Assembly (NCBI RefSeq): GCF_000278275.1
Contig: NZ_JH725147.1
Location: forward strand, 1,228,849 to 1,292,848
Source: Bartonella tamiae Th239
Lineage (GTDB): Bacteria > Pseudomonadota > Alphaproteobacteria > Rhizobiales > Rhizobiaceae
Reading direction: 5' to 3'
Length of the DNA: 64,000 nucleotides
Numbering within the stretch: the stretch's first letter is position 1; every line of letters begins with the position of its first letter. Both the position numbers and the translations under genes were made by a program. The notes beneath the pieces were generated by a model. That model was given only the letters and a program-made list of their open reading frames with translations. It made no database searches and was not told the DNA's origin. This document shows positions 36,834-39,001 of the stretch, piece after piece.

Positions 36834-37313
36834 TTATTCGCAAATAAAATCGAGGGCTCGCTCAACTGTCTTTTGACGAATTTTTGCTCGTTCAAGCGTT
36901 CCAAAATTTTCTTCTTTATGTCGTGTTCTATGGTTTTTACGCGCCACAGCAAAATGAACAAGTCCAACAGGTTTTCGTGTTTTATCACTTTTAGGCCCAG
37001 CAATGCCGGTGACTGCTATTGTAATATCAGCTGTTGAGTGACGAAGCCCCCCTTCTGCCATTGCGATTGCAACTTCGCGAGAAACAGCACCATGTGTTTC
37101 AATTAAAATAGGCGAAACTGCAACCAAACGGCTTTTTGCTTCATTAGAATAAGTTATAAAGCCACAGTCGACAACATCAGAAGATCCACTAATATCAGTG
37201 AGACTTGCAATAATAAGCCCTGCTGTGCAAGATTCTACAGTCACAAGTCGCATATTTTCATTTCGACAAAAGGCCAGAACTTTCATTGCTTTTTCTTCTG
37301 CAATCATAGACAT
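36834..37313 (-). CDS. pncC: CinA C-terminal-domain protein, nicotinamide-nucleotide amidase PncC-like
   Basis: A stand-alone CinA C-terminal domain (159 residues), the family that deamidates nicotinamide mononucleotide for NAD recycling. [15 protein letters not shown] contains the conserved catalytic Ser, and [13 protein letters not shown] and [16 protein letters not shown] are typical. The loop after TGIAGP reads [10 protein letters not shown] instead of the usual GG-containing form, so the active-site loop deviates. It overlaps the ispDF stop by 10 bases. GGAAG precedes the ATG at 37313; an ATG at 37307 is the alternative. Confidence 0.88.
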
Positions 37314-38527
37314 GAAGGTACTTCCCCCGGATAAATAACATTGGCCGTCGCAATAGCTGCGATACCTTCTTTACGACCAATAAATCCTATTTTTTCATTG
37401 GTTGTTGCTTTGATTGAAATGCGATCAGCAGATATTCCCAACATCGCCATTAGTGCATTTGTCATCGCTTCACGATGCGGACCGATTTTTGGTTCTTCTG
37501 CTATGAGCGTAATATCTATATTAATAATGCGACCATGTGCATGTTTTATCAGATTGACTGCATGTCGAACGAAAACATTAGATGCGACATTTTTCCATTT
37601 TTGCTCTGATGGTGGAAAATGGGTTCCAATATCACCGGCGCCTCGAGTTGCCAAAAGAGCATCGGTTAAGGCATGTAGACCGACATCAGCATCGGAATGC
37701 CCTTTTAATTGTCGATCATAAGGAATTTTCACGCCACATAATGTGACAGATTCCCCTGACTCAAATGCATGAACATCGTAACCATTTCCTGTTCGAATAT
37801 CTGGAAAATTTGATGATGTTTCATATGGCAGCACTTTTTCATTCCTTACGCGTTGTTTGGCTCGTATCAAATCTTCTGGCCATGTGATTTTAAAATTATC
37901 GCTGTCACCTTGCATGATTTTCACACTAAGACCAGCCCATTCTGCAATTGCTGAGTCATCAGTAAAAGTTAAAAGATTTTCAGTAAAGGCTTTTTCATGT
38001 GCTTGTAAAATTGCTTGATAAGGAAACGCTTGTGGTGTTTGTGCGTAAAAAAGATGGTGACGAGAAATCGTTTCGCAAACATAGTTATTTTTGTCACTAC
38101 GCTTTAATGTATCAGAAACAGGAAGAGCAGGTAAAACACCTCTATCAAAGCTTAATTGATCAATAATATCGTGTAATAAATGATCGTTAATAAAAGGGCG
38201 TACGCCATCATGAATAAAAACATAATTTGGATTATGGTCTTTTAAAGCACGCAAGCCATTTAAAGTGGAAACTTGCCGGGTTGCATCTCCATAAACAATT
38301 TTTATACGATCAGAAAAATCTTCAAGTTTTTCGTAACATATCTGTTTATCATCGCGATGAATGACAAGAATAATCGTTGAAAAAAGCTTAGATTTTACAA
38401 AAGAGCGTAGTGTATGAAAAATTATAGCATGCTTATCAAGCATACGATATTGCTTTGGACCGTCATGGGGCGTGCCGATACGTTCCCCACGTCCTGCCGC
38501 TAATATGATGGCTGCAACAGATATAAT
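37304..38527 (-). CDS. ispDF: Bifunctional IspD/IspF (2-C-methyl-D-erythritol 4-phosphate cytidylyltransferase / MECDP synthase), apparent non-canonical start
   Basis: Two steps of the MEP isoprenoid pathway in one chain. The IspD half has the CTP-binding loop [14 protein letters not shown] and GPKQYRML, then HDGVRPF and FTDDSA. The IspF half begins GNGYDVHAF and contains [17 protein letters not shown], with metal-binding Asp/His. The first ATG (38443) lies after the essential CTP loop, so it cannot be the start. Between the in-frame TAA at 38543-38545 (the rirA stop) and the loop there is no ATG, GTG, TTG or CTG. ATT (38527) or ATA (38524) follow a CGAGGA ribosome-binding site at 38531-38536 by 3 and 6 bases. 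From ATT the protein is 407 residues, normal for IspDF. Confidence 0.85.
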
Positions 38528-38542
38528 CGATCCTCGTTTTAA

Positions 38543-39001
38543 TTAACTCGCCAATTGACGAGTGTCTTCATCAACATCTATGCCTAATTGGCGACGTAAA
38601 TTAGGGCGTTGTAAATCAGCAATTGATGTTGCTGATAAAACATTAAAAAACGCTTTTAGTGCTTTACTTAGTGTGGCATTAAGCCCGCAGGCATCTACCA
38701 ATGGGCATTCTATCGCATCATTTTCAAAACATTCTGCCATGGCAAAATTATCTTCCGTAATTTTGACGACATCTGCCACAGAAATATCTTCAGCTGGTTT
38801 AGCTAGTTTTACACCGCCGTTACGACCACGAACAGTATGCATTAAACCCGCTTCAACAAGTGGATGAAGAATTTTAAACAAAAATAACTCTGATACAGAA
38901 TAGGCTTTAGCAATTTCAGGTACACGACTAAGTTCACCCGAATTGGCTGCACAGTACATTAACATACGAATAGCGTAATTTGTCTGTTTTGTTAGCCGCA
39001 T
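38543..39001 (-). CDS. rirA: Rrf2-family iron-responsive regulator RirA
   Basis: A Rrf2-type repressor that senses iron through an iron-sulfur cluster and controls iron-uptake genes in Hyphomicrobiales. The winged helix is MRLTKQTNYAIRML at the start, with recognition region VSELFLFKILHPLV. The cluster ligands Cys91, Cys99 and Cys105 (in AECF, IECPL, DACGL) match the spacing of RirA and distinguish it from IscR only slightly; the wording SELFLFKIL favours RirA. Its stop is in frame with the following ispDF frame. An Irr-box-like palindrome lies 38 bases upstream. Confidence 0.9.
   Translation of the reverse strand: MRLTKQTNYAIRMLMYCAANSGELSRVPEIAKAYSVSELFLFKILHPLVEAGLMHTVRGRNGGVKLAKPAEDISVADVVKITEDNFAMAECFENDAIECPLVDACGLNATLSKALKAFFNVLSATSIADLQRPNLRRQLGIDVDEDTRQLAS

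Follow-up and report, generated by a model that had tools for sequence, protein, structure and literature searches.

Comparative evidence for a near-cognate start codon of ispDF in Bartonella

The ispDF gene of Bartonella is very probably translated from a near-cognate start codon, both in the genome studied here and across the genus, to judge from a comparison of the sequences around its start. The window, by which we mean the whole 64,000-nucleotide stretch of Bartonella tamiae Th239 that was analysed, comes from a genome of 2.25 Mb. Here the start is likely to be the AUA at 38524-38522 on the minus strand, and in most species it would be AUU. We propose that a Shine-Dalgarno sequence at normal spacing sets this start, and that the initiator tRNA would then read the near-cognate codon as formyl-methionine.

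AUU starts are rare, infC being the classic case, and to our knowledge only a few bacterial genes conserve a start that is not AUG, GUG or UUG. On this comparison ispDF would be a new addition to a known class. Among the matches listed in a literature search that excluded UniProt and most subscription papers, the ispDF start codon is in no title or abstract opening; earlier notice elsewhere is possible. It is of interest that ispDF, which encodes an MEP-pathway enzyme and stands directly behind an iron regulator gene, keeps such a start through an animal-associated genus and parts of five other genera. There is also a practical side: a gene finder that accepts only ATG, GTG and TTG would drop the CTP-binding loop, which matters for work on IspDF expression or on IspDF as a drug target.

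The ispDF reading frame in the window

Read on the minus strand, the frame runs from TAA (38545-38543) through TTA AAA CGA GGA TCG to ATT (38527-38525) and ATA (38524-38522), then TCT GTT GCA GCC ATC ATA TTA, and on to CGT ATG (38443-38441). An earlier note, made from the sequence of the window, had claimed that this frame holds no ATG, GTG, TTG or CTG between the TAA and the ATG at 38443, that the TAA is the stop codon of rirA (38543-39001) in the same frame as ispDF, and that a CGAGGA (38536-38531) ends 3 nt before ATT and 6 nt before ATA. Re-reading of the frame confirms all of this. The product is identified as bifunctional IspD/IspF by NCBIfam NF006899 (497 bits against a cut-off of 417, over residues 3-404 when read from 38530), and the gene upstream as rirA by NF008886 (261 bits against a cut-off of 193).

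The note also held that the ATG at 38443 is too late for IspD, and this is correct. The Pfam IspD alignment begins upstream of it, with model position 1 at residue 5 (again reading from 38530), at the VAAIIL strand, and a start at 38443 would therefore remove the AAGRGER loop. Since the model begins at the VAAIIL strand, the start is expected upstream of this strand and downstream of the TAA. By itself, the absence of start codons over about 34 codons would not be improbable: our estimate is about 1 in 10 if 6% of codons are start codons. The part that exceeds chance is, on the comparison given below, the recurrence of the start-less stretch in relatives.

Table 1. Features of the ispDF locus, in positions of the window
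Feature	Position	Strand	Basis
AUA, most likely ispDF start codon	38522-38524	-	of 61 Bartonella, this genome included, 53 have ATT and 8 ATA in the homologous column; Shine-Dalgarno gap like theirs
AUU, alternative ispDF start, one codon upstream of AUA	38525-38527	-	near-cognate; Shine-Dalgarno gap 3 nt shorter
CGAGGA, Shine-Dalgarno-like	38531-38536	-	duplex with 16S 3' end, -5.9 kcal/mol
ispDF coding sequence from AUA, stop included	37304-38524	-	frame reading, NF006899 and Pfam
IspD domain, Pfam PF01128, model positions 1-218	37850-38518	-	Pfam match
IspF domain, Pfam PF02542 (YgbB)	37337-37798	-	Pfam match
First in-frame ATG, too late for complete IspD	38441-38443	-	frame reading and Pfam
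rirA, iron-responsive Rrf2-type regulator, directly upstream; TAA 38543-38545 in ispDF frame	38543-39001	-	NF008886
pncC/cinA-type gene, downstream; ATG within end of ispDF	36834-37313	-	frame reading and family match

Duplex energies, in Table 1 and below, were calculated with what we take to be the 3' end of 16S rRNA. At the far end of ispDF, the ATG of the pncC/cinA-type gene falls within the last 10 nt of ispDF (37304-37313), which suggests translational coupling.

The start codon across Bartonella

A search within the genus covered 61 genomes, the window's own included, and found ispDF in 60; the genome without it is 85% complete. One further Bartonella from a family search brings the number read at the ispDF start to 61. 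Over an 800-base core, two of the loci match the sequences of Bartonella apihabitans BBC0178 and Bartonella queenslandensis AUST/NH15 exactly. In one genome (G035, locus L060) ispDF matches as two adjacent pieces, IspD and IspF, in separate open frames, through either a frameshift or an assembly error.

Positions were counted back from a conserved AA(I/V)IL motif. The codon three before this motif, here called codon -3, is ATT in 53 of the 61 genomes, ATA in eight and ATG in none; this alignment of ispDF from relatives is the check that the earlier note had proposed. From the in-frame stop to the motif, 51 genomes, including that of the window, have no ATG, GTG or TTG. The note had named a sequencing error as the dull alternative. 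That such an error, or one of assembly, has destroyed a canonical start is practically inconceivable: the rarity of such starts speaks for it and nothing beyond, and the lack of a canonical start in the same place in 51 of 61 genomes excludes it.

The spacing of the Shine-Dalgarno sequence is similarly constant. Measured from the best anti-Shine-Dalgarno 7-mer (where several are equally good, the most upstream one), codon -3 follows after a gap of 5-8 nt in all 61 genomes: 6 nt in 44, 7 nt in eight, 5 nt in seven and 8 nt in two. The mean duplex energy before this codon is -6.8 kcal/mol, compared with -3.1 kcal/mol for shuffled sequence. No signal of mRNA structure was found, the 70 nt around the start folding no better than single-base shuffles of the same sequence in the 61 genomes (mean -8.9 vs -9.1 kcal/mol).

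The earlier note left the start at AUU or AUA. A near-cognate start is supported by the comparison, and for this genome the other 60 Bartonella point to AUA, both by the column and by the Shine-Dalgarno spacing. A start at AUU 38527-38525, one codon earlier, would leave the mechanism unchanged, and some observations favour it: infC has ATT in 30 of 30 loci and ispDF in 53 of 61 genomes, and codon -4, the column of the window's AUU, is ATC or ATT in 13 of the 61. Against this, codon -4 is elsewhere mostly AGT, AAT, AGC, GAT or AAC, the homologous column in this genome is ATA, and the 7-mer gap in the window is 2 nt to the ATT and 5 nt to the ATA, only the latter falling in the range of the genus. 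A start at AUU is thus a distinctly improbable reading.

In the remaining ten Bartonella genomes, codon -5, -7 or -8 is a canonical start codon (ATG, GTG or TTG). When the gap may range from 3 to 11 nt, the best duplex for these canonical codons is -2.1 to +3.2 kcal/mol, compared with -4.7 to -7.7 kcal/mol for the near-cognate codon in the same genomes. Initiation may nevertheless occur at the upstream codons, despite their far weaker Shine-Dalgarno sequences. In seven loci of the B. apihabitans group (L002-L006, L008 and L011) a TTG, GTG or CTG adjoins the GGGG of the Shine-Dalgarno sequence, with an ATG one codon beyond it in L002. In the six members of this group that have a canonical codon, that codon has no Shine-Dalgarno sequence of its own.

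As noted above, rirA in the window ends in the frame of ispDF, 18 nt before the AUA, and the earlier note had suggested that low-level read-through could give a RirA-IspDF fusion. The comparison gives this no support. Of the 57 Bartonella with a measurable distance between the rirA stop and the ispDF start, 20 have the two in frame, 12 at +1 and 25 at +2, which is close to chance (L016 and L017, with negative distances, and L019 and L043, with no match, are excluded). Four genomes have an in-frame TGA shortly before the AUU, with a single codon between, and rirA was not found in the sequence read upstream of the ispDF loci searched in genera g17, g51 and g96 (see below), of which g51 and g96 tell against a fusion. 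Read-through as the source of IspDF is therefore very improbable. Even more so is initiation out of frame followed by a frameshift into the ispDF frame. At +7, 46 of 61 genomes do have an out-of-frame TTG and three an ATG, but that frame ends after five codons in the three genomes examined, and within 15 nt an out-of-frame start codon is lacking altogether in 12 of the 61. Within Bartonella, the rirA of L013 is merely 40% alike over the match, and none was found in the upstream sequence read for L019 and L043; the gene is perhaps degenerate in some members of the genus.

The two neighbouring genes serve as controls and have ordinary starts. Of 57 rirA genes scored at these loci, 56 begin with ATG and one reads NTG (four left unscored); of 41 pncC genes, 40 begin with ATG and one with GTG (20 left unscored).

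Selection on the start codon was analysed in a core set of 49 Bartonella, from which L001-L012 (the window's genome and the B. apihabitans group) were left out. Of 15 columns that are invariably isoleucine in the standard code, the start column alone uses a single codon, ATT in 49 of 49. Mixtures of ATT, ATC and ATA (totals 408, 208 and 63) are seen in the remaining 14. One change to G in the start codon would give AUG, and G is never found there in the 61 genomes, whereas 14 of the 17 fourfold-degenerate columns with T as the majority have G in one genome or more. In the core set alone the absence of G is unremarkable, because G is seen in only 7 of 22 comparable columns (T throughout in two of the 22). 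The codons TCT and GCA beside the start are also of a single form in the core genomes, as are nine other columns of 134. More generally, synonymous conservation is strong at the 5' end of ispDF (38492-38524 in the window): mean codon entropy in the core genomes is 0.49 in the first 12 columns and 0.72 in the remainder. Codon +3 is ATA in 60 of the 61 Bartonella.

The start codon in neighbouring genera

Two overlapping family searches, of 151 and 394 genomes, supplied 134 genomes from outside Bartonella, these being the best matches plus a single genome from every additional genus that gave a near-full match; genera that gave only partial matches were left out. Nine with no in-frame stop in the sequence read were dropped before the count (eight show canonical codons, and L076 is cut by a contig end), leaving a scored set of 125 genomes in 92 genera, which are given here by labels (g6, g7, g17 etc.).

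Start-less ispDF genes are found in five of the 92 genera, namely g51 (5 of 6 genomes), g96 (3 of 6), g7 (2 of 3), g6 (1 of 1) and g17 (1 of 9), the last being Brucella/Ochrobactrum and containing Ochrobactrum sp. CM-21-5 (L126, identical core). All 12 of the start-less genomes have ATT, ATA or ATC at codon -3 (in g17, ATT at -4). Eight of the nine g17 and three of the six g96 genomes have a canonical codon upstream and stay ambiguous. The duplex energy before the codon is better than that of shuffled sequence in g17 (-4.9 vs -3.3 kcal/mol, nine genomes) and in g6/g7 (-6.9 vs -3.2 kcal/mol, three genomes); no Shine-Dalgarno signal was seen in g51 (-3.1 vs -3.1) or g96 (-3.5 vs -3.6), with six genomes in each.

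An alignment-based scan of named genomes gave 80 named loci, and a canonical codon is present in 75 of 75 named outgroup loci scored. Some relatives have a canonical codon at -3 itself: ATG in L078 (g73), in L148/L231 (one g7 genome) and in several g64, and TTG in L065 (g79). The canonical starts of other relatives are at various positions, not at codon -3 alone. The genes provide a natural series (AUU, AUA and AUC, and in some relatives AUG or UUG at this position) for asking why a gene would avoid AUG.

A tree of IspDF with 63 rows (22 start-less and 28 canonical, 13 ambiguous ones being left out of the state count) has at least six changes of start state, and fits one origin followed by losses or several origins alike. 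The start-less genes are divided between two groups: in one, Bartonella is placed with g6, g7, g27 and g73; in the other, which is weakly supported (87/83), g17 is placed with g51, g64, g79 and g96. The tree is midpoint-rooted, and its root leaves the sister relation of the two groups undecided.

It could be argued that the near-cognate start is real but merely tolerated, having drifted and being sustained by coupling to rirA. This reading denies only a regulatory purpose and is compatible with the explanation that we prefer. The rirA stop lies 2-34 nt before the ispDF start in 44 of the 57 measurable Bartonella, so that re-initiation by ribosomes leaving rirA is possible, and some relatives carry ATG at the same codon without harm. 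We consider toleration unlikely, however, given the single codon kept in the 49 core genomes where 14 other isoleucine columns are mixed, the lack of ATG in 61 genomes when G occurs in 14 of 17 comparable columns, and the presence of such starts in g51 and g96, at loci with no rirA found upstream.

Possible effects on expression, and related cases

We return to the proposal that ispDF has a near-cognate start, and to what such a start would do. The weak codon would lower the output of IspDF, and IF3, which rejects such codons and is itself encoded by a gene (infC) with this kind of start in Bartonella, could set its amount. IF3 is reported to repress initiation on non-canonical starts, infC being autoregulated in this way and sigR repressed (PMC5472188). 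In Staphylococcus aureus, AUU and AUA starts yield less than AUG in reporters, and the AUU start of pcnB in E. coli is said to limit its expression (PMC13009471 and work cited there).

An AUU or AUA start as a brake on ispDF expression fits these cases. By analogy with infC, sigR and the S. aureus starts, ispDF would be expected to be translated at a reduced, IF3-dependent rate: the weak start probably lowers IspDF translation and may make it sensitive to IF3, as for infC. A low level of IspDF, or one coupled to a translation factor, may be the result. That IF3 actually sets how much IspDF is made is a possibility to which we would give somewhat less than an even chance. More speculative again is the suggestion that isoprenoid precursor synthesis is wired to translation, IF3 repressing ispDF and infC in parallel and selection barring AUG in ispDF, perhaps since before the genus arose. 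If this were so, ispDF would be a conserved metabolic gene within a small IF3-controlled set, a feature shared with neighbouring genera, with AUU and AUA interchanging and AUC used once in another genus.

The known systems resemble ispDF in different respects. The sigR gene of Streptomyces likewise has a non-canonical start outside infC, but it encodes a sigma factor, its codon is GUC rather than AUU or AUA, and its repression by IF3 has been demonstrated, where that of ispDF is proposed (PMC5472188). In S. aureus, cvfC1 starts with AUU and ccpN and citZ with AUA, the conserved starts of cvfC1 and ccpN having an extended Shine-Dalgarno sequence; these are other genes in a Gram-positive organism, and were established by ribosome profiling and reporters, whereas the ispDF start is proposed from comparison (PMC13009471). 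The pcnB gene shares the AUU start and is again a different gene in another lineage. The pncA gene (bbe22) of Borrelia burgdorferi, also with AUU, encodes a metabolic enzyme that would lose an N-terminal catalytic part if a later start were taken; there the proof is biochemical and structural (PMC13398362), and for ispDF the evidence is comparative, over a genus and parts of five others.

Near-cognate starts throughout the MEP pathway find no support in the four other genes compared in this genome: ispE, ispG and ispH have ATG near the model start and dxs has in-frame TTG codons there.

The nearest parallel within Bartonella is infC, which as in E. coli has an AUU start. It differs from ispDF in being autoregulated by its own product (PMC5472188); IspDF is an enzyme, and any effect of IF3 on it would therefore act in trans. 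The 30 loci cited above, all with ATT, are those returned out of 61 genomes with infC, scored at the aligned codon only. In the 12 Bartonella infC loci inspected, a purine-rich Shine-Dalgarno sequence ends about 8 nt before the ATT, much as in ispDF. This control has alternatives, since infC in the window's genome also has a TTG, two codons before the ATT. Two of the genomes (G042 and G059) give two infC matches each, either a duplication or an assembly artefact.
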